60,440 nucleotides of DNA from a virus. Each line of letters opens with the position of its first letter. Positions within the stretch are counted from its first letter, which is position 1. The notes under the pieces are model-generated. The model was not told where the DNA came from, made no database searches, and saw nothing but the letters and a program-made list of their open reading frames with translations. The DNA lies in the IMG/VR virus record IMGVR_UViG_3300037070_004226, positions 1 through 60,440 of that record; one strand, given 5' to 3'. The position numbers were made by a program, and so were the translations under genes. Below, piece by piece: positions 1,320 to 59,004 of this stretch.

Positions 1320-1604
1320 ATGGCGAAGAAGAAGATCAAAGTCCCGAAGGAATCACAGACGTACATCGAGGGAACCGCCGAGGAGCGGATTCCAGCGATT
1401 GAACGGGCCGCCTCTGCCTATGCGGACTTCCGCGACCAACGGATTGAGGCCGGTGAGCAGGAGGTCAAGCTGAAACAGAAGCTGATCAGCGTGATGAAGG
1501 ACCATAGCCTCGAAACGTACAAGTTCGATGGGTTCATGGTGATTCTGACCCACGTTGACGAGGACGAGATCAAGGTGAAGAAGCTGCGGGCGGCGAAAGA
1601 GTAG
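1320..1604 (+). CDS. Conserved 94-residue protein, unknown function
   Basis: A small, highly charged protein (basic start MAKKKIKVPK, then a predicted long helix rich in Glu, Gln and Ala) ending in a probable beta-rich stretch around FDGFMVILTHVDEDEIKVKK. It is nearly identical to 57991-58275 (residue 17 is E here, D there) although the DNA differs at silent sites, so it is under purifying selection. In both alleles it sits between the helicase and the structured RNA. I do not recognise the family; a role linked to the helicase or DNA ends is only a guess from position. Confidence 0.8.
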   Translation: MAKKKIKVPKESQTYIEGTAEERIPAIERAASAYADFRDQRIEAGEQEVKLKQKLISVMKDHSLETYKFDGFMVILTHVDEDEIKVKKLRAAKE

Positions 1605-1668
1605 GGCTGGCCTCTGAAACGTGGACCCTCTATTCCGAGGGTTGCGCGTCATGCCAGCCGCTTTTCAT

Positions 1669-1868
1669 AACCCCCAGTTGGGCAAAGGTACTTGGCTCCC
1701 CCACCGACGGCTGCGGCTCTAAGCGGGGAGCGAACAAATCAGTCACCTACAGCAAGCGGGAAAGCCGTAGGCAAGGTGCATGATTGAAGCTGGAGGAACC
1801 GGGTTCGCCCGGTTGGGTTGGTGATGAGCCAACGAGTGCGGCAGCTTACCAAATAACTCGCGGGGTTT
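1669..1868 (+). ncRNA. Structured RNA of about 200 nt, copy 1
   Basis: No credible coding frame fills this gap (1605-1901). It can be folded with an outer stem AACCCC 1669-1674 / GGGGTT 1862-1867; a hairpin GCTCCCC 1695-1701 / GGGGAGC 1725-1731; a hairpin CCTAC 1746-1750 / GTAGG 1767-1771; a stem AAGCTG 1787-1792 / CAGCTT 1842-1847; and within it AACCGGG 1797-1803, loop TTCG, CCCGGTT 1808-1814, then TTGGT 1818-1822 / GCCAA 1828-1832. Copy 2 at 58289-58487 loses one G and one C symmetrically in the TTCG hairpin and turns a U-G pair into U-A. These pair-preserving changes argue for a conserved RNA. The strand is taken from flanking genes. I do not recognise the class. Confidence 0.7.
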
Positions 1869-1901
1869 AGGTTTCTTTGCGTTTCACGCTGGAGTTGATC
1901 C

Positions 1902-2642: not shown

Positions 2643-2875
2643 TTTATCTAATCGCCATAGCCCTAGCTGCCATCCGCATCGCGGGCCACAAGTCCGAAGC
2701 GTTCCAAGCGGTCGCTCATCTTTTCATCGGCTGGCTCATCGGTGCTGGTGTTTATCAACGGGCTACTTGGACCGAAGGCCGCTCGGTAGCAATGCAAAAG
2801 ATTTGGCTGGCAATCGGCTTGTCAGTTGTGGAAGTGATTTGTTTTTTAATTGGAAGGTTTTTTACTCAGGAGTGA
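2639..2875 (+). CDS. Small membrane protein
   Basis: A 78-residue protein with a hydrophobic N-terminal segment (MIYLIAIALAAIRIAG), a second around HLFIGWLIGAGVY and a third (IWLAIGLSVVEVICFLIG), so it should span the inner membrane two or three times. It is coupled to the preceding gene by an ATGA overlap. It resembles no family I can name. It lies in the small-gene array rather than beside the lysis genes, so I do not call it a holin. Confidence 0.65.
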   Translation: MIYLIAIALAAIRIAGHKSEAFQAVAHLFIGWLIGAGVYQRATWTEGRSVAMQKIWLAIGLSVVEVICFLIGRFFTQE

Positions 2876-2878
2876 TTT

Positions 2879-3115
2879 ATGAGCAGCAAAATGGAATGGG
2901 TTGAACACGTTGACAGTTGGGGCCAGAGGTGCGAGCCGAAGCCAATGTCGCTTCTGGTGTTCCACCTTGGCAATTGGAGCGAAGTCATCACCGTGACTCC
3001 CGAAGGCGATGCGGTGGTTGATTTGATCTCCTACCAGGGTGCCGAGAAGCTGGGAATTTATCTCGGCAGCGGGATGGTTCTTGCTGCCACAAGAGCGGAA
3101 TCCAAGGAGACGTAG
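2879..3115 (+). CDS. Hypothetical protein
   Basis: A 78-residue protein with a likely beta-rich core (MSLLVFHLGNWSEVITV) and a Gly/Ala-rich C-terminal half. A good AGGAGTG ribosome site precedes the ATG, and the next start follows the stop directly. No recognisable motif. Confidence 0.6.
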   Translation: MSSKMEWVEHVDSWGQRCEPKPMSLLVFHLGNWSEVITVTPEGDAVVDLISYQGAEKLGIYLGSGMVLAATRAESKET

Positions 3116-6413: not shown

Positions 6414-9400
6414 TTACTCTAACCCGAGACCGGCCAGAGCTCGCAGCTTCTTCCGGTAGGAATCCTTCAGTTCCCCAGTGTCCTTCTCCCTGATCGAACC
6501 GCGTTTCCCGGTGGAATCAGGCTTCAGGTAGTATTCCTGAAGCAGGGACTGAGCGTCTTCGATGGCCCCATCGGCCTTCAGCTTCTGGAACTGGGCCTGA
6601 GCTCGAACAAGGGACCGCCGTTCCCGCTCGTAGGACTCCGCATCCTTGTACTTGGACTCGTCCTTCAGGGGTTCCGTGGCCGCATACACCGTCCGCTGCA
6701 AATAGTCGCTGACGATCTTCTGGACCTCCTCGGGGGCGTCCTTGGCGACCAGCGGGTTCGGGTTCCCCTTCAATTCGTCGTAACCCAGGGCGGAGCGGGC
6801 GAGGCCCACGACGTACGGCTGGTACTGGTAATCCCGCCGGCCAGTCCCTCCCTCCCGTTCCAGATTGCGAATCTCCGTCATCATCTCGGCGTAGCCGTCC
6901 AGCACGGCCTGCTTCCCGGTGGTCTCGTCCGAAACCTTCCCGGCAGCCTTCTCCCGGTGTCCCTGGATCTTCAGATTCTCCAACTCCGTGTAGAAGTCGC
7001 TGACGGAACGCGCCTGATGCCGGTCGAGGACAAGTCCCCGCAGGAAGGGAATGTGTTCCGGGCCCAGCCGGCCGTCTCGAGCCGAGTCATACAGGTCTGT
7101 CATGCGGTGATAGAACCCGCCCGATGCGCTGGAAAGCAGGTGATCGGTCTGAATCGGGCTGATTCCGAGATAGGGGCCAGAGACTTGGCCAATCGAATTC
7201 GATGCCCGCGACGTGTAGGGGGTGGTCTGCTGCTCTTTGGGAAGGTCCTTCAGGTAATCCGGCGTCAGGTCTCGCCCGCGGAAGTAATCGTAATCCGCCA
7301 CAAAGGTCTCCACCAAGCCACGCCCCAGGCCGCCACCCGTGGGGATTCGTCCGCCGAAGTCCCTCAGAACCACGTCGGACGTGTCCCTGGCGTCGTCGTG
7401 ATACCAGGCGTCGAGCATGTTCTCGGTGAGGTTCGAGATAACCGCCGAATCCCGCGGCTTGGGGATTCTCAGGTAGGTCTTCCCGTTCCGGCCCCAGGTC
7501 CAGTAGCCGTCCCGCAGATGAGCCTCTTGCTCGCGCCAGTCGTCGTCATCATGCCGAAGCAGCCAGTACAAGATGCTCGTGGAGGCCAGAGCGCTGAGGT
7601 ACACGACGTACCGGGCGGCGCGTGTCCCCTCGACGTCCTTCTTCCCGAGCGACTTCAGCCCCTTAATCTGCCCCCACTGGCGGTGAGAAGCCTGAATTGC
7701 AGCGTTGAAGAACGGCAGGAACGCCTCGACGTACTGCCCCTTGGCCCCGATTCGCTTGAAGTTGACCGTGGCTTCCGCCATCGCTACTGCGGCCTTGATC
7801 CGGACGTGCTCCGGAAGACGGTCGACCTCCTGGCCAATCTCGACGTTGTACCAGTTCCCATCCCGGATCTCGAACCCCTCTTCCCTGATTGCAGCCTCTG
7901 CATCAGCCAGCCGGGGCGGGGCGTCAGAAACGGCGATCAGGTCCATCATCCCCTGCAATACGCTCTCGGCGGAATCGCCGGGTCGGGACAGAGTGATTCC
8001 CAGCTTGCTCAGTACCGACTTGCCAATCCGCCGGCGGCGATAGCGAGTCCTGCTTTCGGCGTCGTGACCGACGACTGAATAGACCTTGCCGCCCGATTCC
8101 TCGTACAGGCGGATGAGCGGGTCGTTGGCTTTGTGCCCTGTCAGCTTGCGGGCCTTCTCGGCGATGTACCGGCCGAGCATCTCAGGAGGCTTCCCGAGCG
8201 TGGAGAGTCCCTTAGCGTGCCGGGCCTTCCCCTGGAATTCCCAGTAGTCCCGCAGCAGGTTGGCCGTGCCGAAGCCCGTGGAAGCACCCACGGCACCGGT
8301 CTTGAACCAGCGGGCCGCTTCCCGGAAGACGGACATGAACGGGCCGAACTGGACTTCATCCATCCCGGTAGTCGTCGCGTACAGGTCTTGGTCCAGCTCG
8401 TACATCAGGGGGTTCCCCTGCTTGTCGTAGATCAGAACCGTTCGCTTGGAAGCGTTGGGGGTGTAATCCGGCCGCCAGAGGGAAATGACCGCCAGTGCGT
8501 TGGGCTCCTCCTGGGCGGCTTCCATGAGGGCGTCGACGTCGACCTCCCCGTCCTCTTCTTCAATCCCATGCCTCTCGGCGAACCACTTCAGCGACTTCTC
8601 GCTGACCGTTTCCGGGGAATTGAGAAGCTGGGCCGCAATCTTCATCGCTCGGGAGTCATCCGCCTCGACGACACCCTCGTCGACCAGGGTATCCAGAATC
8701 TCCTCGATGTTCCCCTGCGTCACCTTCCGCTTCGGGTCCACCCGGTCCATCAGACCGCCCATGCCTCCGACGCCGCCCAGCTTCGGGTCCAGCGTCTCGG
8801 CGAGAACGTGCTGCTGGCGGGCCTGAATCGCCCGGCCGTAGAACCGCATCGCCTGGGCAACCGTGGCGTCGATCGGGTCGATGATCTGCCGGCCAGAACC
8901 CTTCCTCGACCGTCCCTTGACCGCCTTCCCGAGGTTGACGAAGCCCACCCCGCTTCCCGCGAACCGGCCTTTGTCTCCCTCCCGCACTCGATGCAGGGGG
9001 AAATAGTTCTTCCCGCCGTAGTACCGGAGCATGTTGTCTGCCTGGTCCTGGGGCAGGGCGCCCGCTTCCACCAGCATCTTCAGCAGGTCGTTGTTGAACT
9101 GGGCGAGACCCTGGGCGAACGCCTCGAACCTATCCGACTTCCCGCTCGCCTCGACTTCGCTGATCCAGTTCTCGGCGTCCTCGACATCGAAGGCGGTGTT
9201 GTAACCAGGCTTCTTCTCTTCCATGAACAGGGTATGCCTGGCTGCCGCGTACAGAACCGCGTCTTCGTACTCTCCGTCGGATTCCAGATGGTCCCGCAAT
9301 CCCCACAGGGAGGTCGTGCCGATGGGCTTCCCGGTCTGAAGCGACTTGACCCCTTCCTCGAAGGCGATCGTGGCGTGGGACGAGGCCGACATGAAATGGG

Positions 9401-20413: not shown

Positions 20414-22765
20414 CTACGTTGCGGACGGAGACGAGGACGGAGTGTTTGAAACGGACGAGGAGCGGCTGCTCGATGGCGTATTCGACACGGACGAGGACGG
20501 AGTGTTTGACACCGACGAGGACGGCGAGGGGCTGCTTGAGGGTGTGTTCGACGTGGACCCAGAAGCGGTGCTCGACGGCGAAGCCGAGGTACTCGTGCTT
20601 GGCGTGTTCGACACCGACGCCGAGGGGGAATGCGATTGACTGCTCGAAGGGCTGCTTGACGCTGACGACGACGGCGAAGGACTGCTGGAAGGAGACACAG
20701 AAGGAGAAGTCGAGGGACTGGCCGAAGCCGACGCGGATGGCGAGGACGAAACGCTTCTGGACGGGCTGGCAGACCGCGAGGACGACGGCGACGGGCTGCT
20801 CGACGTGGACGCCGAAGGTGACGCCGAGGGGGTGTTCGACACGCTGGCGGAAGGCGAACTCGACACAGAAGCCGAAGCAGTGCTCGATGGCGACGAAGAA
20901 ACGGACGCGGAGGGCGATGTGGATGTCGAAGCGGAGCGGCTGGAGGAAGGCGTATTCGAGACTGATGCGGACGGCGACGTGGACGGCGAACTTGATGTCG
21001 AGGCCGAGGGCGAAGTCGAGGGGGAAGCCGAAGCGGATGCGGACGGCGTGCTGGAGACCGACGCGGATCGGGACGACGACGGAGAATGAGAGACCGAGGC
21101 AGAGGGAGACGTGGAGGGAGACCCCGAAGGGCTGCTCGAACAGGAAACCACGCCAGGATCAACGATGTTGGCCGTGCTTCCCCGCCACTGACCCGAGGTT
21201 TCTGTATTTACAGTAAGTCCCTCGAACGCCCATCTCTCACACGACTGAAGCCACAAGACCGCCCAGACCGACCGGACGCGGGGGTAGCACATAATCGCCC
21301 GTCCGCTGATCCAGTTCCCGGAGCCTTTGACGTAGGTTGAATAACTCGTTCCGGCCTGGTACGCCTCGATCGCTAGCTTCACGTTGTCCGCCGCTTCTTC
21401 CGCAGTGTCCCCAGTGATGATCCGCCAGTTCACTCTCCCGCCGCCGGCCGCGAGCTGCGCGTGCATGTTCAGCATCCGCCCGAAGTACCCAGGGCGGCCG
21501 AGCCGGAAGGGGCCGATGGCGACGTGCGACGAAATCTCGTTCCCATCGTCGTCAGCCCCGCCGACCTTGCGGATGTACCCGTCACTGCCGGCCAATAAGA
21601 GCATTCCACGGTAATTACAGACCGCCAGCGGGGAGAGGCTGTCCCGATAGAACCTCATCGGCCAGAACGCCTTGGACACCGTTTCGTACAGCCAGTGGGT
21701 GTCAGAACCCGCAGCGGTTCGGAGGTAGATATGGAACGCCCTGCGCTCCTGGTCCCACCCGAGGGAGACCGTTGTGTCCGTGATGTGGATGTCCCTGAGC
21801 TCATCCGGCACGACGTCCGGAGTGAGGGCCGTCAGGTTGGAACCATCGGCGTTCACGGAATAGAGCCCGTCTTCCGAGAGGAACACGATCGACGTGTCCG
21901 TCTTCACCCAGGCTTTCGCGCCAACGATGCCGACCTCTTCGGAGACCCTTTGCAGAGATCCGCCCGCGGTGGGGTCGCCATTCACCACCCAGATTCCCCT
22001 GGACGTGAAGCAGAGCAGGTATTTATCCAGGCAGGGGACGATGGCCAGAGGCCGGGCACCGACATCCGCAGCGAGTGACAACTGGAACGCCAGCGCCCGG
22101 CCCGAGTCATTGAAGTGCGCCCCGTAATCGAAGTCGCCGTACACCCCCTGCCGAGACATGTAGATCGCGTTGTCCTGCCCGGCCATGCACAGCCGGTCGC
22201 GGTAGACCGCCCCGAACGTGCAATTCGTCGGAATCGTGCTGCCGGCGACGGCGACGAGGTTGTCGACCTGCCGCGTCTTGGGGTCCATCTGCACGACGCC
22301 GCTGGTGGTGACGGCGAACACCTTCTGCTTCCCAGCCACCAGGAAACCGCTGGCGGGAGCCGTTCCCTCGCTGACGATGATGGGGTTCTCGTTCTCATCG
22401 GTGATGATGTCGCCCGCTTCGTTCGTCAGGTAAGCCACCGTCGTCGTCAGAACGCCGTTGTCAATCGTGGCAATCGAGGAATCGACCAGCACGAACAGGA
22501 CTTCGCTCGCCCCGCCGGCCGCCGAGGAGACGTTCACCGCGATCATGTCGTCGATCGTGGTTCCGAGGGAAGCCGAGTGGTATTTCGTCAGTCCGTTCCG
22601 ACTTCCCCCACGGAGTCGGCGGTCCAATGGGTCTTCAATGCGGACGTTTACCGACCAGGGACTCGGGAAGGCCACGCGGGAATCCGGGCTGGAACGCACC
22701 GCTTCCCGGCGGACAACGCCCCGCATCGGCCATCGAAGATCAAGAGTCTTTTTCGGCATCGCCAT
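20414..22765 (-). CDS. Tail nozzle/stabilisation-type protein with mucin-like Ser/Pro tail
   Basis: The start MAMPKKTLDLRWPMRGVVRR is at 22765; upstream residues are the overlapping glycosyltransferase. The first 540 residues are rich in beta-propeller-like blades (KVFAVTTSGVVQMDPKTRQ, RDRLCMAGQDNAIYMSRQG, WVVNGDPTAGGSLQRVSEE) as in podovirus tail stabilisation or nozzle proteins. The last 240 residues are almost only Ser, Pro, Ala, Thr and Val (SVSNTPSSSRSASTSTSPSA and similar), a mucin-like extension. Glycosyltransferase genes lie immediately upstream, so the extension may be glycosylated (inference). Long open frames on the opposite strand here are by-products of the repeat. Confidence 0.75.
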   Translation of the reverse strand: MAMPKKTLDLRWPMRGVVRREAVRSSPDSRVAFPSPWSVNVRIEDPLDRRLRGGSRNGLTKYHSASLGTTIDDMIAVNVSSAAGGASEVLFVLVDSSIATIDNGVLTTTVAYLTNEAGDIITDENENPIIVSEGTAPASGFLVAGKQKVFAVTTSGVVQMDPKTRQVDNLVAVAGSTIPTNCTFGAVYRDRLCMAGQDNAIYMSRQGVYGDFDYGAHFNDSGRALAFQLSLAADVGARPLAIVPCLDKYLLCFTSRGIWVVNGDPTAGGSLQRVSEEVGIVGAKAWVKTDTSIVFLSEDGLYSVNADGSNLTALTPDVVPDELRDIHITDTTVSLGWDQERRAFHIYLRTAAGSDTHWLYETVSKAFWPMRFYRDSLSPLAVCNYRGMLLLAGSDGYIRKVGGADDDGNEISSHVAIGPFRLGRPGYFGRMLNMHAQLAAGGGRVNWRIITGDTAEEAADNVKLAIEAYQAGTSYSTYVKGSGNWISGRAIMCYPRVRSVWAVLWLQSCERWAFEGLTVNTETSGQWRGSTANIVDPGVVSCSSSPSGSPSTSPSASVSHSPSSSRSASVSSTPSASASASPSTSPSASTSSSPSTSPSASVSNTPSSSRSASTSTSPSASVSSSPSSTASASVSSSPSASVSNTPSASPSASTSSSPSPSSSRSASPSRSVSSSPSASASASPSTSPSVSPSSSPSPSSSASSSPSSSQSHSPSASVSNTPSTSTSASPSSTASGSTSNTPSSSPSPSSSVSNTPSSSVSNTPSSSRSSSVSNTPSSSPSAT

Positions 22766-23702
22766 CGTGCCACGAAGGAATCGGCTTGAAATGCTCAACA
22801 AGCCATGATAACGGACGGACGGCCAGTGGCCACGCATCTTTTAGCCACAAATCCCTGGAATGGTCCCGAGCCTTGTCGATGTCCCTTTGCGAGATTTCGT
22901 AGGGCCAGGACGATTCTCCGTTCTGTCCGAAGTTCCCCGTGCGGAAGAGATGCGAGATCCAGGTGTCGAGATTCGTCACCATCCGGCCCCCGGAGAGCCA
23001 GGCTTTGCAGGCGAGCTCGGTCCCGTACTGGCCCCAGCTTCCGTGAGATTCATCCATCCCCCCGAGCTTCTTGAACCGCTTCCGGTCCATCAGGAAGGCG
23101 CAGCCGATACAGCTCATCGTCTCGACGATGCCCGAGGGGGCCTGCCGCTTGTACTCCGGGGAGTGAACGTAGTGACGCCAGTATTGGAAGTGAAGCGTTC
23201 GGTCGAACATCCACGAGGTCGTAGGGGCGTACTCGACTCTGGGCTGCCAGACCATGACCTTACTGAAGTCCGTTCCCTTGCACTCCTTGCACTCGACCGG
23301 CTTCGTCCCCTGGTACTGTCTCTCCCCGCAGCCGTTGCAGTGCCAGTCGAAGACATGGAGCCGGTGCATCGACGGAATCATCGTCATGTCCGGCTCCATC
23401 TTGGCCAGGAGCTTCCGGTCGAAGCCCTCGTCGGTCGAGCAATGGGCGTCGAGTTTCATCACGTACTTCGCCCGGCTGACGTGCGCCCCATAGTTGGTCG
23501 CCGCCCGCTGGCCTACCGCGGTGCCAAAGTGAAGCACCTGAAGCCGCGGGTGATGAACGAGGGGAGGATTCGGCCAGTACGAATCGCAGACCGCAATGAC
23601 CTCGGTCGATTCGTCAGAGTGGGCGAGAACGTCGTCCACGGTATGCCGCATGAATTCTTCGTTGCGGCCGGGAATAATCACGCTGAGGAGTTTAGCCGCC
23701 AC
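22740..23702 (-). CDS. Family 2-type glycosyltransferase with zinc-ribbon insert
   Basis: A 320-residue cytoplasmic GT-A fold enzyme: LSVIIPGRNEEFM at the start, YVMKLDAHCSTDEGF carrying the DxD-like metal/nucleotide-sugar site, and EYKRQAPSGIVETMSCIGC followed by GGMDESHGSWGQYGTELACK as the acceptor region. An inserted CNGC...CKEC pair around residues 123-145 probably binds zinc, unusual for this family. It overlaps the previous glycosyltransferase and the following tail gene, so it is co-expressed with virion proteins. The sugar and acceptor are unknown. Confidence 0.85.
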   Translation of the reverse strand: MAAKLLSVIIPGRNEEFMRHTVDDVLAHSDESTEVIAVCDSYWPNPPLVHHPRLQVLHFGTAVGQRAATNYGAHVSRAKYVMKLDAHCSTDEGFDRKLLAKMEPDMTMIPSMHRLHVFDWHCNGCGERQYQGTKPVECKECKGTDFSKVMVWQPRVEYAPTTSWMFDRTLHFQYWRHYVHSPEYKRQAPSGIVETMSCIGCAFLMDRKRFKKLGGMDESHGSWGQYGTELACKAWLSGGRMVTNLDTWISHLFRTGNFGQNGESSWPYEISQRDIDKARDHSRDLWLKDAWPLAVRPLSWLVEHFKPIPSWHDGDAEKDS

Positions 23703-24441
23703 GATGTCTCGCGCTCTTTCCGGGGTTTTTGTGGAACCAGTTACGCTCCGTCTTCCGGCTCAGGGTATGAAACAGCCCCTGCGGATCGGCGTCCACGTCC
23801 CCGACGTATTTGCCGTTTGGGAAGTGGTATATCTTCGGGCGGTGGGTGCAGACTTGGCTTCCCTCTCCACCACGCTTCAGCTCGTAAGTCCGCCAGGCAC
23901 TGCGGAAGGCCCTGTCCTCACCCTGGGGGTAGGGCTTTTCCACGAGGTCTTCCCGGTATCCGCCCAGTTCCCAGAACACGTCCCTCCGCATGGCGAAGTT
24001 GTTCGGAAGCGGGCCATGAGCCAAGCTCACGTTCTTCGGGAGCCCGTAGGTTTCGAGAACGTCTCGGTCCTGGGTCAGCCGGCCATTTTCATCCAGCACC
24101 CCAAACTCACGGACGAATTGGACTTTGACGCCGGTGAATTCCCTGATGAATTTGATCGCGTACCTGGGGACGATGTGGTCGAGGTCGTACATCATGAGGT
24201 ATTCGCCCTTGGCGATTCTGGCCCCGGCGTTCCGGGCGAGGGCCCACGTCCAGGGGCGCTTGTCGTTCGTCCTGATAATCGTCGCAATGTGGTCAAAGTT
24301 GTTCTCGATGGGCGGGTCGCTCCCGTCATCCACCAGAATCAACTCGGTGTCTCCGGGCAGGCCGATGTTGTAGAAGTGCAGCAGTTGCCGGCGAACCACT
24401 TCATGCGAATTCAAACATGGTATTACGATGCTCAACTTCAC
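23692..24441 (-). CDS. Family 2-type glycosyltransferase
   Basis: A 249-residue GT-A enzyme. I place the start at the GTG 24441, which forms a GTGA overlap with the previous gene and gives the standard N-terminus VKLSIVIPCLNSHEVVRRQL; the longer upstream reading is out of character. Motifs: ELILVDDGSDPP, ALARNAGARIAKGEYLMMYD followed by LDH (DxD-type site), and GGYREDLVEKPYPQGEDRAF near the catalytic base. It overlaps the next glycosyltransferase by 11 bases. The acceptor is unknown; virion proteins are a candidate from context. Confidence 0.85.
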   Translation of the reverse strand: MKLSIVIPCLNSHEVVRRQLLHFYNIGLPGDTELILVDDGSDPPIENNFDHIATIIRTNDKRPWTWALARNAGARIAKGEYLMMYDLDHIVPRYAIKFIREFTGVKVQFVREFGVLDENGRLTQDRDVLETYGLPKNVSLAHGPLPNNFAMRRDVFWELGGYREDLVEKPYPQGEDRAFRSAWRTYELKRGGEGSQVCTHRPKIYHFPNGKYVGDVDADPQGLFHTLSRKTERNWFHKNPGKSARHRGG

Positions 24442-25785: not shown

Positions 25786-26321
25786 TACGTGGGCGACGGG
25801 CTTGCGGACGGAGAACCGGACGCGGACGCCGAGGGCGACGTCGAGGCCGAAGGCGTATTCGACACGGACGCTGATGGTGACGTGGAAGCCGATGGCGTAT
25901 TCGAAGCCGACGCCGAGGGCGACGTGGACGGGCTGCTCGACGCCGAGGCCGAAGCGATGACCGTTCCCAGGTTCCCTTCGAGGGCTTCCCAGCGGAACAC
26001 GCCGGCGCTGACCGTCACCGAAATGAGGCTCAGGAAGTCGCTGGCGTCCGCAAAGGTCGCTTGCGTTTCCCCGGCCACGTTGAAGCCGCCGGTCGCAGTG
26101 ACAACGATGTCACCACCGCCATCCGTCTTGATTCGGAGGACCAGCCGAATTCCCGGCTTGGTCGGCCTGGGGAGCGTGCGGGTTTCCCCGGAAGCGCCGC
26201 TGACCATCTCACAGATTTGGAGATCCATCTTCGGCCGGATGATTCCGGCGTTGCCTGGGTCTTTGAGGATCTTCGGGCCTTTGTACAGGTCGTGGTGAAG
26301 TCTGGAAGCTGGCGTGCCCAT
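25785..26321 (-). CDS. Small virion protein with mucin-like Ser/Pro tail
   Basis: A 178-residue protein. Residues 1-120 are clearly paralogous to the next gene upstream (26371-26733): both carry DLQICEMVS, a TRTL...PxKxGIR stretch, TDGG(G)DIVVT, NxAGExxATFxDASD and LSLISV...FRW. Residues 122-178 are a Ser/Pro/Ala/Thr repeat absent from the paralogue. It is probably a capsid or tail surface protein. Its 3' end touches the glycosyltransferase cluster (TAATG). Confidence 0.65.
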   Translation of the reverse strand: MGTPASRLHHDLYKGPKILKDPGNAGIIRPKMDLQICEMVSGASGETRTLPRPTKPGIRLVLRIKTDGGGDIVVTATGGFNVAGETQATFADASDFLSLISVTVSAGVFRWEALEGNLGTVIASASASSSPSTSPSASASNTPSASTSPSASVSNTPSASTSPSASASGSPSASPSPT

Positions 26322-29531: not shown

Positions 29532-30335
29532 TTAATCCACGGAAAGGTCTGTCGATGTGGCGAAGCTGTGTCCTGGTACGGTCGAAAGCAGGATTTCCGT
29601 GCGTGATACTGCGGTTTTCAACCTGGATCTCTGAGTCGATGGGGCCTGAATGAGTATTGTATCCGAAGTGATCTCGATTTCATCTCCGCCGCTCGGGCTG
29701 GAAGAGAGTGAAGAGGAAACCGAAGCGCTGGGTGAAGGACTGGCCGAAGGGGAAGTTGATACGCTGGCGCTGGGTGAGGTGCTAGTCGAGGCCGAAGGAC
29801 TGGCCGAAGGCGAAGCGGAAACGGAAGCGGACGGTGTGGACGATGGGGAACTGCTTACCGAGGCCGATGGCGACGAGGAAGGCGATGGCGAAGCCGAGGG
29901 GGACGATGACGGCGATGGCGAGGCGGAAGGCGTTGACGATGCAGACGCCGAGGGTGTTGCCGACGGCGAGCTGCTTACGCTACTTGATGGCGACGGGCTC
30001 GCACTGGGAGACGTGGAGGGCGAACTTGACGGTGATGGGGACGCCGAGGGCGTGGACGAGATAGACGCCGAGGGCGAAGCGGAGGGGGTAGAAGAGGCCG
30101 AAGCCGACGGTGATACGGATGGCGTTGACGATGCCGATGTGGACGGCGAGGACGATGGCGACGGGCTGGAGCTTGGACTTGCGGACGGGCTGGAACTGGG
30201 CGAAGCAGACGGGCTGGTCGATGGAGAGGACGACGCCGCTGAAGACGCATCATGGATTGCTCCATCCGGCGTCCAGAATACGCGAGCGCCTTCCAGGACT
30301 ACTGAGCCGTCTGAGGACCAGGCTACTTGTGGCAA
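29532..30335 (-). CDS. Mucin-like Ser/Pro repeat protein
   Basis: A 267-residue protein with a short folded N-terminus (MPQVAWSSDGSVVLEGARVF), about 180 residues of Ser/Pro/Ala/Thr repeat (units such as SPSASPSPSSSPSTSPSA), and a globular C-terminus of about 50 residues (EIEITSDTILIQAP onward). The layout, a long flexible spacer between two small folded ends, suits a surface fibre. It stops directly before the next gene's start. The function is inferred from position among adhesins. Confidence 0.6.
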   Translation of the reverse strand: MPQVAWSSDGSVVLEGARVFWTPDGAIHDASSAASSSPSTSPSASPSSSPSASPSSSPSPSSSPSTSASSTPSVSPSASASSTPSASPSASISSTPSASPSPSSSPSTSPSASPSPSSSVSSSPSATPSASASSTPSASPSPSSSPSASPSPSSSPSASVSSSPSSTPSASVSASPSASPSASTSTSPSASVSTSPSASPSPSASVSSSLSSSPSGGDEIEITSDTILIQAPSTQRSRLKTAVSRTEILLSTVPGHSFATSTDLSVD

Positions 30336-42861: not shown

Positions 42862-44781
42862 TTAGAAGCTCATCACGTCACGAATTCCGAACTCAGGACT
42901 CCCTTCCTCCACCTTATTCCGCTCCCTCATCTCCCGCCACAGAAAACTTCCGTACTCGGGAGTTTCGCTTGTTTCCTCGGGAAAGTCAACTCTGCCATCC
43001 GCTTCCGAGGAATAAACCAGCCAGGCCACACCTGCAGCTATGCACCGATCGCCATGGTTCACTTCCTTCGCCGCGTGGTTCTTCGTGGGCGCGTGAATGA
43101 TCTTCCCGTCCTCCCATTCGTACTCGCCGCACTCCTTAATCAGTTCATCGCTCCGCAGAATCAGCTTCCCGGTCTCCATCCCCAGCGCCATCTGCTCGAA
43201 GAGGTTCGCCTTGTCCTCGTTCGTCCGGTTCCCCCAGCCGGCCTTCCGAGACTTCCGCTTCATGCCGATCTCAGGCACGTCCCGGTAGAACACGTTCCCA
43301 TAGTAGATGACCTCCATGATCTCCTTCGCAAAGGGCCCAGACATCCCCGAATCCTCCCACCCCAGCCGCGCCTTCCGCAGCCACAGACACAGCCCCACCA
43401 CGACCCGGGCAAACTTAATCAGCGGCATCCCCTTCACCGTGTACTCCCCGACCTGTTCCCCCGTTCGATCGTCCAGAATCGAGGCCACCGAGTTTGAGGA
43501 GTAAGCCCCGTCACTTCCCGAAGCCATGTCACAACCTACCGTGAACGGCCCGAGTGGAGGAGAGTCATCAGCACCAGGCCGGAACCAGAGCTTCAGGGCT
43601 CCGTCACTCCGGGGAAGAAGTCCAGTCAATTCCAAATCTTCTGAGTCGAATATGGGCGTCCCCTGCCAGATCGGAGCTCGGCAGCTCTTCTTCGCCTTAT
43701 CCAGAAGTTCCGTGGTGAACACCTTCCCGACGGCCCCGCGGGGGTCCCGGTCGAGCTGCGAAGCGATTAGTCTCGGGGTCGACGTCGGACGGAGACACCG
43801 CATGTCGTACCAGGGGGACCGGACCCGGCCTTCGAACTTGAACCCCTTCCTCTCAAGTCGACTGCGCAGGTCCGGATTCTCCCGGTGATAGGCGTCGACG
43901 GCCGGCTGGTCGACCTGCTTCCGGGCGACCGGCTTCTCATTGATAATCTGGTAGGAATTCTTCCCGTGAATCGGGTTGTCCTTCCAGTCCAAAACCAGAT
44001 GAACGCTGTTCTTCGCCGTATCAGGGTTCTCGCAGGCGTCGTGGAACACCCCCGCATCGGCATAGCGGGCCGAGACCATTCGAATGCAGTTCGACACGTC
44101 ATGCAGGGATTCCTGGACCGCGTAGTCCTTCCCGCCGGCGATGAAGTCCCGAGCTCCGGCCTCGTCAATCGTGAAAACCGTCGCCCGTCCACCTGCCGCC
44201 ACGTCCTGACCGGCCGCGTAACCAGAGAGCAGCGCGCCGTTGGCCGGGTTCAGGAACGTATGCTGACCAAGATTCCGGTGCTTCTGAGGATCCCATCCGT
44301 CGGGGACCAGCCAGAAGGGGAGCTTTTCAATCGCCCAGGCCACCTTCCAGAGAACCGTGCTCGAGTCCGTCTTGGAATCCACCAGTGATTCGTTCCGCGT
44401 CACGAAACCCGCCGAGAACATCGGGTCCCTGAGCCATCTCCTCAAATCCACCCACAAATACCCGTAAGTTCCACCCTGTGCCCGGCTCTTATCCACGATG
44501 ACGTCGATGGTCTTCTCTTCCCCAGAATCGTCAATCGCCTTGTCAATCGCCAGGAATACCGGTTCCTGATGGGGCCAGGGAATGAACGGCCTCACCTTCA
44601 CCTTCGCCCGCGGTTCGTAGGACCAACAGGCAAATCCCATGAAGAAGAGCAGGTCCGTCATGCAGGCGTCGATGAGCGCCTTCCGAAATCTCAAATCCGT
44701 AATCGCCCGCTGACGGCAGGCATACCGCCATTCGAGATTCTCCGCTGGGTCTTTTGGGTAGAGGTCGTAGAAGGGGGTCAT
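42862..44781 (-). CDS. terL: Terminase large subunit
   Basis: A 639-residue protein; I use the ATG at 44781 (MTPFYDLYPKDPAENLEWRY), since upstream sequence belongs to another frame. The ATPase domain shows IDVIVDKSRAQGGTYGYLWV as a variant Walker A region (residues 92-111) and RATVFTIDEAGARDF as Walker B with the catalytic Glu near residue 207. The nuclease domain shows FTVGCDMASGSDGAYSSN and WEDSGMSGPFAKEI. It packages DNA into the head and cuts it. The end type is unknown; the permuted assembly is compatible with headful packaging. Confidence 0.9.
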   Translation of the reverse strand: MTPFYDLYPKDPAENLEWRYACRQRAITDLRFRKALIDACMTDLLFFMGFACWSYEPRAKVKVRPFIPWPHQEPVFLAIDKAIDDSGEEKTIDVIVDKSRAQGGTYGYLWVDLRRWLRDPMFSAGFVTRNESLVDSKTDSSTVLWKVAWAIEKLPFWLVPDGWDPQKHRNLGQHTFLNPANGALLSGYAAGQDVAAGGRATVFTIDEAGARDFIAGGKDYAVQESLHDVSNCIRMVSARYADAGVFHDACENPDTAKNSVHLVLDWKDNPIHGKNSYQIINEKPVARKQVDQPAVDAYHRENPDLRSRLERKGFKFEGRVRSPWYDMRCLRPTSTPRLIASQLDRDPRGAVGKVFTTELLDKAKKSCRAPIWQGTPIFDSEDLELTGLLPRSDGALKLWFRPGADDSPPLGPFTVGCDMASGSDGAYSSNSVASILDDRTGEQVGEYTVKGMPLIKFARVVVGLCLWLRKARLGWEDSGMSGPFAKEIMEVIYYGNVFYRDVPEIGMKRKSRKAGWGNRTNEDKANLFEQMALGMETGKLILRSDELIKECGEYEWEDGKIIHAPTKNHAAKEVNHGDRCIAAGVAWLVYSSEADGRVDFPEETSETPEYGSFLWREMRERNKVEEGSPEFGIRDVMSF

Positions 44782-44785
44782 GGGG

Positions 44786-45615
44786 CTACTTTCCGGCACA
44801 GACGTAAGGGCCGCACGAATACTCCCACTCTTCGTCCGCGAACAGGCGAAGGTTTTTGTCGTCCTTGATGGCCTCGCGTAACGGCTTGAGACGAGAGCAG
44901 AAGTAAACCGGGTCTTTCCCGAGGGAAAGACGACGGTCATTCAACAGCTCTTCCAGTTGGCACGATTTCTCAAATAGCTTTGGCCGCGTCCGTCTCTGTT
45001 CAATCCAGAAGCGAATAGTATGCAGCGGGCAGAACCAGCAAGACGATTTTGGAGCGACCGGCAGGCCAGCGGCCTCGATGATGTTCATGCAAGCGCCACG
45101 ACTCAGCCCCAAGCGGATAAGCGGATAAGCGGGTAGTCGAGAATCTGGTGCGGGATGCCGCTATCCGACCTCGCCCGGCTTGCTTCATCCGTGCTGATGC
45201 CGATGCCGACAATCATCGGATGCTCTTCGGTCGCTCCGTTCGCCTTCGACCACTTCGCCAGCACTTTGATTTTGAAGTCGGCGGTGCAGCTCCTTGTACC
45301 AGGTGCTCCAGTCTCGCTCATGCGAACAGGAATTGGCAGCGACCTTGAACCGTGTTTGGTCAATCTGCCCAGGAGCGTCTCTTGCGTGCCATCTCGCTTC
45401 AGACGCGGAATGACGACCAGCGATAACCCATGCTTCTCGGCGTAGGGCTTGGCGACCTGTTCCAAGTAATCCAGAGTCGCCGGGTTCTCTGAGTCCTCCC
45501 CCACGTCCGCCATGACGAAATGCTTGTATTCCGGCAGCCTGCCAGTCGCGGCCAGAACAAGGCAGGCGGTCGATTGAACCCCACCGCCAAAGCTGAAAGC
45601 GTGAGTAATTGTCAT
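44786..45615 (-). pseudogene. PAPS reductase-like PP-loop gene split by an 8-bp tandem duplication
   Basis: The 5' part (45615-45103, 170 residues) has the PP-loop AFSFGGGVQSTACLVLA and SETGAPGTRSCTADFKIKVL. The 3' part (to 44786) has GLSRGACMNIIEAAGLPVAP and SSCWFCPLH. In related proteins these are one chain reading PLIRLGLSRGAC. Here the octamer CGGATAAG occurs twice in tandem (45114-45121 and 45122-45129); removing one copy restores a single frame of about 275 residues. It may be a real loss, a phase-variable switch or an assembly error. Phage proteins of this group are thought to act in DNA or tRNA sulfur modification or related adenylating chemistry; the substrate is unknown. Confidence 0.75.
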
Positions 45616-45836
45616 CCGTCTATGTCCGCTCCTTCCATCACAAACCCATCACACCCCACAGAATACGCCACCCGAAACGCCGCGGCAGACAAAGCCCCCC
45701 TCAGACGTTCGTTCTCACCCTCCAACCACTTCACCCTGTCCCGAAGCTCGCCGATCAGCTTCTCGTGGGCCAACAATGGCCTTTCGTTCTCGTCCGTTTC
45801 AAACTCGTCTTCCGCTCGCCATCGTGGATCGCTCAT
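45612..45836 (-). CDS. Small coiled-coil protein
   Basis: A 74-residue protein starting MSDPRWRAEDEFETDENERP with a central coiled coil (IGELRDRVKWLEGENERLRG) and a short C-terminal tail. The stop overlaps the start of the PP-loop gene (ATGA at 45612-45615), so they are coupled. Function is unknown. Confidence 0.55.
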   Translation of the reverse strand: MSDPRWRAEDEFETDENERPLLAHEKLIGELRDRVKWLEGENERLRGALSAAAFRVAYSVGCDGFVMEGADIDG

Positions 45837-45838
45837 CA

Positions 45839-46096
45839 CTACCTCACTACGTTCTGCTGGCGTGAAAGTGTACCCATCGCCTGTTCCATCGTCAGCGTCG
45901 TGGAAATGGCAAGACCGTCCTGAACAAACACCGCCCCGCACGGAGACCTCAAATACCTCTCCCCATTCCGCAGCTTCCGCCAAAGCACCGAGGATGCCAA
46001 TTCAGCGTCCGCAGAAAACGCCGGGAATCGTTCATCAAATCGACTCCTCGCATGAAGGGTAAGACCAGGCATCCTGACCGGTGTGGTTTTGCCCAT
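45839..46096 (-). CDS. Hypothetical 85-residue protein
   Basis: A basic protein with LTLHARSRFDERFPAFSADA and VFVQDGLAISTTLTMEQAMG. The layout, HARSRFxERF followed by a small beta region, recalls small phage proteins with toxin-like folds but is not diagnostic. It begins where the HNH-type gene ends. Confidence 0.5.
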   Translation of the reverse strand: MGKTTPVRMPGLTLHARSRFDERFPAFSADAELASSVLWRKLRNGERYLRSPCGAVFVQDGLAISTTLTMEQAMGTLSRQQNVVR

Positions 46097-46836
46097 CAGA
46101 CTGCCTCTTTTTCCCTTCGTTCGTACTCACGATACCACTCCGCATCCCGCTTCGACATCGGCGTTCGATAAAACGGGTCGGAACTGTGCTTGCTGGCCAC
46201 CGGCTTCACGGCGTCCTCCGCAGACGCTCCTCGCTTCAGGCGACGATAAATTACCGCTGACGAAATTCCAAATTCTGAGACGCACTCGCCCACGCTCATC
46301 ACGATTCCGTCAATCTCAAGCCTGATGTTGTTGCTCCGGTTGTTGGCCTGGACCTCGACTGTCGCCCAACGACAATTTCCAGGCTCATAACTCCCGTCGT
46401 TGTCCTCCCGGTCAATCGAGTGGAGATCGGACGGCCTCCTGCCCATGTCCTCCAAAAATGCCAGGAACGATCTCCACCGCTCGCAAAAGGTAATTCCGCG
46501 GCCTCCGTACCGCTCGTTTTCAAGATCCAGGCATCTCGCCTTCATCGCCAGCCAGACGCGATATTCAGGCGTCCCGCTTTCTCCGTGAGTCACATGCCCG
46601 CCAAACTTGTGGCCTCGCTCGACCGCCATCTCCTTCGCCAAGCATCCACACGATTTCGTCCGACCATTCCTGAGAGCCGGAAGCCGGAAAACCTTAGAGA
46701 ACCCGCAGTCGCACTTGCACTCCACCATCCGAACTATCGTCCCGTTCGGAGTCTTCACCTGATCCAGTTCCCGCTGAACTACCAACCGCCCAAAGCGGTC
46801 GCCAGCAGATACAGGTTTTGCGGTCTTGAGCGGCAT
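46096..46836 (-). CDS. HNH/AP2-type homing endonuclease-like protein
   Basis: A 246-residue protein. The N-terminal part has a zinc site built from CKCDCG (residue about 40) and SCGCL. The core is the phage HNH pattern EYRVWLAMKARCL, YGGRGITFCERWRSFLAFLE, LHSIDREDNDGSYEPGNCRW and ATVEVQANNRSNN; the C-terminal part (SVGECVSEFGISSAVIYRRL) looks like a DNA-binding NUMOD-type helix-turn-helix. Such genes are often free-standing homing endonucleases that spread between phages. It sits next to TerL-proximal genes, a common location. Confidence 0.8.
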   Translation of the reverse strand: MPLKTAKPVSAGDRFGRLVVQRELDQVKTPNGTIVRMVECKCDCGFSKVFRLPALRNGRTKSCGCLAKEMAVERGHKFGGHVTHGESGTPEYRVWLAMKARCLDLENERYGGRGITFCERWRSFLAFLEDMGRRPSDLHSIDREDNDGSYEPGNCRWATVEVQANNRSNNIRLEIDGIVMSVGECVSEFGISSAVIYRRLKRGASAEDAVKPVASKHSSDPFYRTPMSKRDAEWYREYERREKEAV

Positions 46837-46850
46837 CGACGAAGCATAGC

Positions 46851-46920
46851 CGGTTATCCCTGATGGGTCAAGTGCCGTCTTAACAGGGCTTTAGCACATT
46901 TCGGTTACAGGGATAATCCG
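46851..46920. repeat. Inverted repeat in the gap between two late genes
   Basis: CGGTTATCCCTG (46851-46862) is mirrored by CAGGGATAATCCG (46908-46920) with one extra base and a spacer of 45 bases. The whole gap 46837-46981 has no coding frame. The long spacer makes a simple terminator unlikely; an operator, a protein-binding pair or the target of the neighbouring homing endonuclease are options. Confidence 0.5.
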
Positions 46921-46981
46921 TTAGGGTCCCCGTCGAGGTGGCACCGACTGGATCGAATCCCGGCGAGGTCGAGCGCGTGCG

Positions 46982-47593
46982 TCAGTCCTTCCCCTTCCCT
47001 GCGTCCTTCATCTCCTCTAACAGCGCCCTTATCTCCCCCAGTTGCATCCTCTCCCTGCGAACGAATTCCGCTTCATCCTGCCCGCTCGAAGCCTGCTTGC
47101 TGGCCACCTCGATGAACTTGGCGTAACTTCGAATCGACGTTTCCAGCCAGCTCAATGCGCTTCGGCTTGGTGCTGGGCCGTAAGCCTTTGTCAGATCAAC
47201 CTTTACGGCGCCGCTTGGCAATTCCTTCACGACAGCGAGCCGGTTCTCTTGAACCCAACTCACTTCCACGCCTAGACTTACGCTCCCTGGAAGCTGCGGC
47301 CAGTCCTTCGGAATAACGTCAAGCCCCTTGATTCCCCGCTCTCTCGGCTGTAACTCGTTGTCCTGTGCTGGCTTAGGCGGAGATTCCAAAAGCGCACTCG
47401 CTTCGCTTTTCCCCCCTTGCGGCGGAGGTGGACCCTTCGCGGGATTGTAGAGTTTTCCGTTCGGTCCGCGGGCCAAAGGGACGCCAAACGCCATCAAGGG
47501 AGGGCTCGGCTTGGCCGCTACAACCGCAGTAGCGGCATCAGGAACGCTCCCCTGCCCTGTTTGTGGTTCTGCTTGTGGTTGTGGCTCGATCAT
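46982..47593 (-). CDS. Candidate small terminase subunit
   Basis: A 203-residue protein with a Pro/Gln-rich N-terminal 90 residues and a conserved-looking C-terminal half: DWPQLPGSVSLGVEVSWVQE, APSRSALSWLETSIRSYAKF and FVRRERMQLGEIRALLEEMK. It is the first gene of the leftward late operon behind a good promoter, the usual place for TerS, and no other TerS candidate exists. The assignment is from position; a role as a regulator is possible. Confidence 0.45.
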   Translation of the reverse strand: MIEPQPQAEPQTGQGSVPDAATAVVAAKPSPPLMAFGVPLARGPNGKLYNPAKGPPPPQGGKSEASALLESPPKPAQDNELQPRERGIKGLDVIPKDWPQLPGSVSLGVEVSWVQENRLAVVKELPSGAVKVDLTKAYGPAPSRSALSWLETSIRSYAKFIEVASKQASSGQDEAEFVRRERMQLGEIRALLEEMKDAGKGKD

Positions 47594-47692
47594 GGCTGTG
47601 GCGGCTGTGCTGCGTCCTGTGTGGCAGGTGATCTAGGTCGAGTGAGGCCGTCGGAACGATTCTGGTGGCATCCTAGAGCGTCGGTTGAGGGG

Positions 47693-47722
47693 ATTATAGG
47701 GTGAATCGGGGTGGAATCTCAA
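47693..47722 (-). promoter_or_regulatory. Leftward sigma70-like promoter
   Basis: On the minus strand TTGAGA (47722-47717) is separated by 18 bases from TATAAT (47698-47693), a perfect -10. Transcription would start near 47686 and read into the late operon with a leader of about 90 bases. This suggests that at least the first late genes are read by the host RNA polymerase. Confidence 0.65.
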
Positions 47723-47739
47723 TAGTGGGGCGAAATGGC

Positions 47740-47767
47740 TTGCACTCCTGATGGACCGCACTACAAT
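47740..47767 (+). promoter_or_regulatory. Rightward promoter candidate, possibly leaderless
   Basis: TTGCAC (47740-47745), 16 bases, TACAAT (47762-47767). The expected start of transcription is at or next to the ATG at 47774, which would make a leaderless mRNA; no ribosome site precedes that ATG. The -35 match is weak. Confidence 0.4.
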
Positions 47768-47773
47768 AGCCTC

Positions 47774-47959
47774 ATGCCATCTAAAGCCGCTGCCGATCTG
47801 GCCCGATTACGCTGGAAGGGGAAATCAGCCGAGGAACGCCGCGCGACCATGGCGCGAGCCCGCGAGGCCCGCGATATGTCGCCGGAAGCACGAGCGGAAA
47901 TGGGCCGCAGACTAACCGCGGCCAGGGCTGCGAAGCGAGCAAAACCGCAGGCCGAGTAA
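47774..47959 (+). CDS. Small basic helical protein
   Basis: A 61-residue protein (MPSKAAADLARLRWKGKSAE start) that is almost one Arg/Ala/Glu helix with a repeated AEERRA/PEARAE pattern. The alternative start at 47735 adds 13 unlike residues. It is the first rightward gene; a DNA- or RNA-binding role would fit its charge but is not shown. Confidence 0.5.
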   Translation: MPSKAAADLARLRWKGKSAEERRATMARAREARDMSPEARAEMGRRLTAARAAKRAKPQAE

Positions 47960-48018: not shown

Positions 48019-48024
48019 ATCTGA

Positions 48025-55799: not shown

Positions 55800-56356
55800 T
55801 TAAGCTCACTGACGACGAATTGAAGATGGACCTGCCTGCCGCTCTGGCCGAAACCGAGATGGCAATCAAGGCCCTCGCTGCCATCAGCCAAGCAGTTCCC
55901 GAAGAGGCGTACCAGATTCGCAGCATAATGCGGCGTGCGATTGCTGGTGAACTTGACCGCGACCAGTACAAGAAGGAGCGGGATGGCCTGCTCGATGACA
56001 AGCGGGTGCTTGGGGACCGCCTCAGCCGCGTCGCCGCCGAGCGGGCAGAGGCCATAAGCGAGAGGGACAAGGAACGCTGGCGGAATCAGGACGAGCAAGG
56101 CAAGTGGCTGGAAACCAGGGACGCAAACCAGCGAATCACCGCAGAGCTTGCAGCACTGAAGGGCGGCACTGCGGCTGACGATGTGCGGATGCTCCGGCGA
56201 GCAATAGGTGTGATGGTTCCGACGATTTGCCGCTGCTACCGAGACACGACCCCATCGGCTAACGACCATGAGGCTGCCGAGAAAACGCTGGCTCGCATTG
56301 ATGCGGCGATGCGTGCGACCGCCAAGTATGGCCCCCACGACGGAGAACCGATGTGA
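55796..56356 (+). CDS. Coiled-coil hypothetical protein
   Basis: A 186-residue protein starting MIKLTDDELKMDLPAALAET. A helical first third is followed by a long coiled coil (RDQYKKERDGLLDDKRVLGD, LSRVAAERAEAISERDKERW) and a C-terminal helix (EKTLARIDAAMRATAKYGP). Its stop overlaps the GTG of the helicase gene. Function is unknown. Confidence 0.6.
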   Translation: MIKLTDDELKMDLPAALAETEMAIKALAAISQAVPEEAYQIRSIMRRAIAGELDRDQYKKERDGLLDDKRVLGDRLSRVAAERAEAISERDKERWRNQDEQGKWLETRDANQRITAELAALKGGTAADDVRMLRRAIGVMVPTICRCYRDTTPSANDHEAAEKTLARIDAAMRATAKYGPHDGEPM

Positions 56357-57951
56357 TAGCCTTACCGGACTTGTGGAAACACCAGGAAGACCTCCGCGAC
56401 CGCACCCGCGCCGCCCTGGCGGCGCACGGTCGGGTGATTCTCTGTGCGAACCCCGGTTTCGGGAAGACTCGCTGCTCGAAGTGGATTCTGGGGACTGCGG
56501 CGAACCGGGCTCCACTTCCGAATCAGACCGGCCGAAGCCTGTTCTGCGTTCATCGCCGCGGCCTGGTGGACAACGCCTCCGATTCCTTCCTGGAAGACCC
56601 CAAGCTCCCGCATGGAATCATTATGAGCGGTCGAGACGCCGCCTACGGCCACCGAATTCAGGTCGCCTCGATCGACACGATGCTCAGTTGGTTCATCGAG
56701 GACGACCAGTACCACACCGACATTACCTTTGACCTGATCGTGTTCGACGAGTGCCACTCACACCACGATAAGCTGGCCCGATTCCTGAAGTACCACGACC
56801 AGAAGCGAGAAGCCCTCGGCCAGCACCCCGCTTACGTGATCGGCCTCTCCGCGACGCCCCAAGCGAAGGGACTGGCGGACGTTTACAAGGAAATCGTGCT
56901 CGGGCCGACGACCCAGTGGCTGATCGAGAACAAGTTCCTCAGTCCCTTCCGCTACTTCAAAGGGGTTCAGGGGAAGCTCGGCCTGCTCGTGAAGCGGGGG
57001 GATGAGTTCACCAAGGACAGCGAAGCGGCCGCGATGGAAGGGATGTCCGGCGATCTGGTGAGGGACTGGAAGAAGTTCGCAGACGGTCGCCCCACGGTCG
57101 GGTTCTTCCCGCGCCGTTCACACGCCCAGGACGCCCTGGAACAACTCACAGCCGCCGGTCTCAAGGTGGCCTACGTGGACGGGGACACCGACGACCCCGT
57201 GCGCCGAGCGATGTTCTGGGATCTGAACCACGGGAAGCTCGATTACATTTGCAACGTCCAGGTGATCGAGCGGGGAACAGATATTCCGCGAATCGGCTGC
57301 ATCCAGTTGTGCGTGGCCGTTGGAAGCGTCGTCAGATATCGCCAGATGATCGGCCGCGGAAGCCGGATCCACCCTGAGAAGGTCGACTGCCTGGTGCTCG
57401 ACCACGGGGGAAACATCCTCAGACACGGTTTCTTCGAGGATGACCCGCCATGGAGTTTGGACCGTTCCGAGAAGAACCCCGGTGATCACAAGACCCGCCC
57501 GACGATCGAATGCCCCAAGTGTCAGGCGATCTACCGAGGGGGGAAGTGCCGGCAGTGCGGCTACGAACCGTCTTCCGCGGAACGACGCGGGCAGGGGCTG
57601 GAATTCGATGGGAAGGAGCTCGCCGAGGTCAAGGCCAAGGAGAAGGCCCCGATCAAGGTCTGTTCGGCCGAGGTTCTGATGGTGCGTGCCCTCTATATCG
57701 CGGGGAAGTCCGGTCGAACCTGGCGGCAGTGCTGTGGGATCTTCAACGGTCTCTGCAAGCGGCAGGGGACGCCGGAGTACAGGATTCCAAGCTCAGTAAG
57801 CGTTTCAGGCAAGAGATACCAGATGCCCCGCTATGGAACTTCTGACGGTGGGCAGAGGGTAGGGCATATCTTCCCGTTCACGATTGAGAAGGGGAATCAC
57901 GGCGGAAATTACCTGGAAGAGCCCCAGGAGAGGCAACATTCAGCGTTTTAA
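56353..57951 (+). CDS. SF2 DEAD/DEAH-type helicase
   Basis: A 532-residue helicase with GTG start in a GTGA overlap. Motifs: Walker A NPGFGKTR (residues 33-40), DECH (132-135), LSATP (165-169), ERGTDIP and QMIGRGSR near residue 330. A zinc ribbon follows (CPKC, CRQC at about 385-405) and then a conserved C-terminal domain. It would unwind branched DNA or restart forks, and is the only helicase recognised here. Its 3' half is repeated at the window start with mainly silent changes. Confidence 0.9.
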   Translation: MIALPDLWKHQEDLRDRTRAALAAHGRVILCANPGFGKTRCSKWILGTAANRAPLPNQTGRSLFCVHRRGLVDNASDSFLEDPKLPHGIIMSGRDAAYGHRIQVASIDTMLSWFIEDDQYHTDITFDLIVFDECHSHHDKLARFLKYHDQKREALGQHPAYVIGLSATPQAKGLADVYKEIVLGPTTQWLIENKFLSPFRYFKGVQGKLGLLVKRGDEFTKDSEAAAMEGMSGDLVRDWKKFADGRPTVGFFPRRSHAQDALEQLTAAGLKVAYVDGDTDDPVRRAMFWDLNHGKLDYICNVQVIERGTDIPRIGCIQLCVAVGSVVRYRQMIGRGSRIHPEKVDCLVLDHGGNILRHGFFEDDPPWSLDRSEKNPGDHKTRPTIECPKCQAIYRGGKCRQCGYEPSSAERRGQGLEFDGKELAEVKAKEKAPIKVCSAEVLMVRALYIAGKSGRTWRQCCGIFNGLCKRQGTPEYRIPSSVSVSGKRYQMPRYGTSDGGQRVGHIFPFTIEKGNHGGNYLEEPQERQHSAF

Positions 57952-58275: not shown

Positions 58276-58288
58276 TTGCTCGACCTAT

Positions 58289-58487
58289 AACCCCCAGTTG
58301 GGCAAAAGGTACTTGGCTCCCCCACCGACGGCTGCGGCTCTAAGCGGGGAGCGAACAAATCAGTCACCTACAGCAAGCGGGAAAGCCGTAGGCAAGGTGC
58401 ATGATTGAAGCTGGAGGAACCGGTTCGCCGGTTGGGTTGGTGAAGAACCAACAGTTGCGGCAGCTTACCAAATAACTCGCGGGGTTT
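58289..58487 (+). ncRNA. Structured RNA of about 200 nt, copy 2
   Basis: Homologous to 1669-1868 with a handful of changes, several of them pair-preserving: the TTCG hairpin is AACCGG/CCGGTT (one pair shorter on both sides), and TTGGT (58437-58441) pairs with ACCAA (58447-58451) where copy 1 has GCCAA. Stems AACCCC/GGGGTT, GCTCCCC/GGGGAGC, CCTAC/GTAGG and AAGCTG/CAGCTT are unchanged. No ribosome site or long frame lies inside. The gap between genes here is 58276-58524. Confidence 0.7.
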
Positions 58488-58524
58488 AGGTTTCTTTGCG
58501 TTTCACGCCGGAGTTGACTCTGCT

Positions 58525-58830: not shown

Positions 58831-59004
58831 ATGAACTACAAGGAATTTCGATCCCTGGTAACGCACCTGCGTTGGGCGCAGAAGGAATACTTCCGCACCC
58901 GAGACAACACCCTGCTGGAAGCGGCGAAGAAGCTGGAGCGGGAGGTGGACAAGGAGCTTCTGGAAACAGGACAGGGGAAGCTGTTCGAGGAGGATGGGAA
59001 GTGA
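58831..59004 (+). CDS. 57-residue helical protein (allele B cargo)
   Basis: Encodes MNYKEFRSLVTHLRWAQKEY and a helical, charged remainder (EAAKKLEREVDKELLETGQG). It starts three bases after the previous stop and ends in a GTGA overlap with the next gene. Function is unknown. Confidence 0.5.
   Translation: MNYKEFRSLVTHLRWAQKEYFRTRDNTLLEAAKKLEREVDKELLETGQGKLFEEDGK

Follow-up and report, generated by a model that had tools for sequence, protein, structure and literature searches.

A structured noncoding RNA was found at two places in the 60,440-nt stretch of viral DNA analyzed here (IMG/VR record IMGVR_UViG_3300037070_004226, positions 1 to 60,440; hereafter the window), and diverged homologues were found in three other phages. 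A structured, conserved RNA is the only thing that the comparison of these sequences demonstrates. Double-sided helix changes in independent homologues were found for its core, P3, and in weaker form for the P4 and P5 arms. Coordinates of the RNA, its elements and the genes used to trace it are listed in the table.

Features of the structured RNA and associated genes in the window
Feature	Position	Strand	Remarks
Structured noncoding RNA, copy 1	1668..1899	+	Spans P1 region to 3' hairpin
P3 core, copy 1	1695..1731	+	Covariation; covariance model R1, 49.3 bits
P4 arm	1737..1785	+	Closed by AAUCA/UGAUU, with CCUAC/GUAGG inside; YAAGCGR conserved in the loop; support is partial
P5 arm	1787..1847	+	AAGCUG/CAGCUU closing hairpins 1797-1814 (TTCG-capped) and 1817-1833
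Conserved unpaired AAAUAA after P5	1851..1856	+	AAAUA in L117, L282 and G005
Structured noncoding RNA, copy 2	58288..58518	+	Other strain, opposite assembly end
P3 core, copy 2	58316..58352	+	Model R1 match
94-aa gene	1320..1604	+	Adjoins the RNA in the window phage only
DEAD/ResIII helicase	56353..57951	+	Query for finding related phages
57-aa phrog_15937 gene	58831..59004	+	Near RNA copy 2

A sequence-only reading of the window had proposed a block at 1669-1868 with a copy at 58289-58487, and both were located at these positions. The conserved block reaches approximately 1899, the interval first proposed being the core of copy 1. Alignment of 1666-1899 against 58286-58518 gave 235 columns with 11 substitutions and three gap positions; about 110 consecutive bases on the 5' side were unchanged, apart from one inserted A, and the P5 arm carries most of the differences. 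The block is more conserved than the neighboring genes, in which 14-19% of third codon positions differ: the 94-aa gene has changes at 13 of its 94 sites and the helicase at 50 of its 262. Because the copies differ by indels of one and two bases, and no + strand ORF of at least 60 aa runs over the block, it is non-coding.

The changes that had been read from the two copies were confirmed. The TTCG-capped hairpin passes from AACCGGGTTCGCCCGGTT at 1797 to AACCGGTTCGCCGGTT at 58418 with the symmetrical loss of one G-C pair, its stem of 7 bp in copy 1 being 6 bp long in copy 2; a U-G pair becomes U-A between GTTGGTGATGAGCCAAC at 1817 and GTTGGTGAAGAACCAAC at 58436. A pair of near-identical copies alone cannot prove a fold, and this pair is insufficient because no base pair has substitutions on both sides between the copies and the fold energies were only mildly better than those of shuffled sequences (z-scores of -1.64 and -1.44). 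The unconstrained minimum-energy folds of copies 1 and 2 were not alike. Of the proposal of a structured RNA with compensatory changes between two alleles, the structured RNA was upheld; the evidence comes from the homologues in three other phages and not from the "alleles", which are two ends of one assembly.

The ends of the window are colinear (1-2595 versus 57160-60436, 84-100% identity, 199 bp identical), and its left end starts midway through the helicase gene. The sequence is probably a circular or permuted genome of ~57 kb that was assembled through two co-existing strains, though the record is classed as linear. The sole other viral-contig record with the window version of the RNA, IMGVR_UViG_3300035076_000012, was not counted as independent because it is 100% identical to positions 44423-58649 (14,227 bases). 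The near-copies at the two contig ends differ in cargo: only the left end has a cysteine-dioxygenase-like gene (801-1298, phrog_4786). Between the 94-aa gene and copy 1, at 1606-1667, lies a hairpin GGCTGGC..GCCAGCC followed by CTTTT, which is missing in copy 2 and, judged by eye, may be a terminator. Diverged direct repeats (63-82%) at 20614-21129, 25807-25954 and 29785-30203 are common to minus-strand genes of the window and are possibly repeated domains.

Homologues were reached by a search with the helicase, followed by inspection of the flanks in helicase-bearing relatives. The first was found in L117 (IMGVR_UViG_3300020202_000007) at 8780-9040. Querying related records with L117 gave a second at ~23690-23975 of G005 (IMGVR_UViG_3300033148_002141, the record of L081), and a pattern from the loop common to L117 and G005 gave a third on the minus strand of L282 (IMGVR_UViG_3300012172_000001) at ~2820-3082. 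L282 has 87% identity to L117 over the common 5' part, and its 3' part resembles that of G005 by eye, so that it links the other two. L152 is identical to L117 and was left out of the count. The comparison thus comprised four independent sequences (window, L117, L282 and G005), and all three contigs besides the window carry the helicase. No copy of the RNA was detectable in ten further related records, several of which are fragments. Searching through the 94-aa gene gave one non-independent match in viral contigs and zero in genome contigs; when phage and plasmid records were searched with the block by blastn, chance matches were all that appeared, and patterns from the P3 and P4 loops of the window copy gave mostly chance matches.

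P3 is the best-supported element, and comparison of the four independent phages has shown that its predicted fold is common to all of them. It consists of 37 nt that align without gaps across the four, with a 7-bp stem (GCUCCCC/GGGGAGC in copy 1), a 7x6 internal loop with YRCCGAY opposite MYAARR, and a tip formed by a 3-bp stem and a UGMG tetraloop. Pairing was found in 97.5% of 40 cells over the four sequences, and 5 of 10 pairs showed double-sided changes; the helices had been expected to persist in homologues, and the three other phages retain P3 via compensatory changes. Covariation was 0.683 versus 0.224 in shuffles, with 0 of 500 shuffles as high, and was at most 0.148 when the partner strand was slid by 1-3 columns. 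The covariation is strong because the conserved loop fixes the register. The G-U pairs, U-G in L282 and G-U in both G005 and the window, are compatible with the + strand alone, and the RNA was therefore placed there. The same pairs bear on whether the block could function as DNA, for example as a replication origin, a packaging site or a recombination anchor for cargo exchange. Its location near replication genes and the different cargo on both sides in the two strains would suit this explanation, but compensatory changes that include G-U pairs indicate RNA pairing rather than DNA-hairpin pairing, and the sequence within the helices is free to change. We consider a DNA-level element very unlikely.

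The partners in P4, P5 and the closing stem were all chosen by hand. In the hairpin after P4, GUCA/UGAC in one and GUCG/CGAC in the other of L117 and L282 amount to a compensatory exchange between A-U and G-C. At the position of P5, the sequence has changed in the homologues and the pairing is retained. When P3, P5 and a candidate end helix were evaluated together, 92% of 88 cells were paired and nine pairs were double-changed, with covariation of 0.576 versus 0.191 in shuffled sequences (0 of 500 as high) and 0-0.14 in the slid controls. P5 is the weaker element because its partner strand was hand-chosen and such partners arise by chance; a chance partner of 5-6 bp for the P5 strand was present in 29-67% of shuffled sequences. 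Without constraints, the minimum-energy fold of L282 contained P5 and that of copy 2 contained part of it. Other conserved unpaired features, identified by eye, are GGCA(A/U)A, the YAAGCGR of the P4 loop and UUGCG near the 3' end. We infer a closing stem that carries the three arms P3, P4 and P5. In the window, a closing stem or pseudoknot could be formed by AACCCC/GGGGUU with GCAAAG/CUUUGC, a pairing for which support was inconsistent across the four sequences.

Across the window, Rfam 15 gave zero matches that reached gathering thresholds; with E-values relaxed, no credible match appeared for the block or for the homologues, so that the check for a known family left the proposal standing. 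The view that the block is no tRNA or tmRNA agrees with the lack of a match from both ARAGORN and Rfam, and no catalytic core of RNase P RNA or a group I intron was recognized by Rfam. No account of this RNA was found in searches of the literature. Orphan structured phage RNAs are a known kind, and the family is new as far as Rfam and the searched literature go. Covariance model R1 recovered the known loci only, at 49-55 bits, the next match in the related records scoring 17 bits.

Other candidates were rejected as further members. A CGACGGCTG-like loop in ~20 other contigs was attributed to chance (at most 26 bits by R1, versus 49-55), and noncoding stretches after the L078 helicase and after the L127 HNH gene, both similar by eye, had no R1 match. 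The L078 stretch (8530-8710) looks structured and has no Rfam match either. That of L127 (9464-9765, record of L079) is ~300 nt long, lies 3' of the 94-aa and HNH genes and contains an 11-bp AATCACTGTCC/GGACAGTGATT helix. Two intergenic units in L077 (~8375-8500 and 9010-9145), each with a TTGACA promoter-like start, have interleaved helices (GGACCCGCAAA..TTTGCGGGTCC with AAGCCACC..GGTGGCTT) and T runs at the end, and may be pseudoknotted small RNAs. In L080, ~1 kb at 7173-8195 interrupts the helicase reading frame in the manner of an intein or homing insertion, and a tRNA-Met gene lies downstream at 9146-9219.

In all four phages the RNA shares its strand with the early block that contains the helicase and replication genes. 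Several kb of same-strand cargo follow 3' of the RNA in the window, L117 and L282, giving the long downstream operon stretch that would be expected of a put- or EAR-type RNA; in G005 the RNA lies ~250 nt before the + strand block ends, with hardly any operon downstream. The genes that follow are unrelated: 68-aa and 100-aa genes in the window, a nucleoside deoxyribosyltransferase in L117, a 131-aa gene in L282 and a small ORF in G005. Control of the downstream gene by a riboswitch or leader would account for the conserved unpaired bases in the internal loops and for the start codon within tens of bases 3' in each phage, but related downstream genes would be expected of it and those found are unrelated in all five contexts. 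For this reason the RNA does not act as the riboswitch of any single fixed gene, and we disfavor this explanation as improbable. A guide-type or catalytic RNA (IscB/TnpB omega RNA, a degenerate self-splicing intron or a new ribozyme) could explain the complex multi-arm fold with conserved loop bases and the HNH gene nearby in L117. It is also highly improbable, given that no nuclease is consistently adjacent, that no RNA-guided nuclease gene was found beside the RNA among the neighboring proteins searched, that no such class matched in Rfam, and that the block lies between genes and not within one.

The RNA had been described as staying beside the 94-residue gene, which did not hold beyond the window phage: in L117, L282 and G005 it follows phrog_15937-type sequence instead, and L127 has the 94-aa gene with no detectable copy of the RNA. 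The phrog_15937 gene is near the RNA in the window (58831-58968), L117 (G006) and G005, and L282 has a 3' remnant of it. Of 14 related phage records, only those that bear the RNA have the gene, which is missing from the ten others. It may be a partner of the RNA or merely part of a common neighborhood. The phrog_15937 genes of Porphyromonas, Croceibacter, Bacteroides and Phocaeicola phages (n = 4) had no adjacent gap fitting the RNA, and because these Bacteroidota phages have no room for it the link is not obligatory.

Our best guess, held with slightly less than even confidence, is that the block encodes a phage-specific structured noncoding RNA, which is cut from the operon transcript and then acts in trans. 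An RNA of ~200-270 nt would be made from the + strand within an early-gene transcript ordered as replication genes, helicase, RNA and variable cargo, from which it would be excised. The folded RNA might then act in trans by binding a phage or host protein via its conserved internal loops, and the flanking genes could be exchanged freely without affecting it. Action in trans is preferred because the flanking genes are freely exchanged and because the RNA of G005 is at the operon end, a position that leaves an antiterminator little to do. Besides the hand-chosen partners in P4, P5 and the closing stem, two observations count against it. In the window copies, the GGAG ribosome-binding site of the following gene falls within the conserved 3' end, as would suit a cis element. 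Free trans-acting RNAs often have their own terminator, and neither promoter nor terminator was recognized at the block by a scan that assumes sigma-70-type signals, which may not be those of the host.

A close rival, which we regard as possible but rather doubtful, is a cis-acting operon element in the nascent early mRNA, working either by modifying RNA polymerase for processive antitermination, as put and EAR do, or as a junction for processing or stability where replication genes give way to variable cargo. The position between the helicase module and the cargo in the window, L117 and L282, the indifference to the identity of the following gene, the lack of sigma-70-type signals of its own and the run of the window RNA into the next ribosome-binding site all fit such an element; the near-absence of downstream operon in G005 and a size larger than that of put or EAR do not. 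We tentatively suggest that the RNA is the first member of a new phage RNA class, specific to a family of uncultured phages, and would be either a trans-acting folded RNA or RNA-protein particle or a new antitermination RNA, possibly together with the phrog_15937 protein. To our knowledge, relatively few structured RNAs have been described from dsDNA phages, and these are mostly tRNAs, introns and known leaders. The core of this RNA is defined, its covariance model works and four independent sequences are available, so that searches, probing and deletion are all feasible. Action in trans would make it a new means by which phages control the host or their own replication; action in cis would make it a new antitermination or processing element of environmental phages.

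Among known systems, GOLLD, ROOL and OLE are orphan structured RNAs without settled function, some of them phage-borne, and are much longer. The RNA described here is likewise an orphan structured RNA, but has no Rfam match to any of the three and is much shorter. These large RNAs have been the subject of a cryo-EM study (PMC12286853). The guide RNAs of IscB/TnpB type, such as the reRNA derived from RAGATH-18 (PMC11061315), are also structured RNAs borne by mobile DNA; in contrast to them, this RNA has no linked RNA-guided nuclease or identified guide-like variable end. Surveys of bacteria and metagenomes by comparative intergenic analysis have yielded candidate structured RNAs of unsettled function (PMC2864571, PMC8040213). 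No Rfam model matches this RNA, which was set apart from those candidates at the level of Rfam models. The closest known systems are the put RNA of phage HK022 and EAR of the Bacillus eps operon, structured operon RNAs of 70-120 nt that are indifferent to the identity of the downstream gene. No sequence similarity to either was found, this RNA is about twice their size or more, and one of its four loci is at an operon end, but it resembles both in being a structured RNA within an operon that is not tied to the downstream gene.
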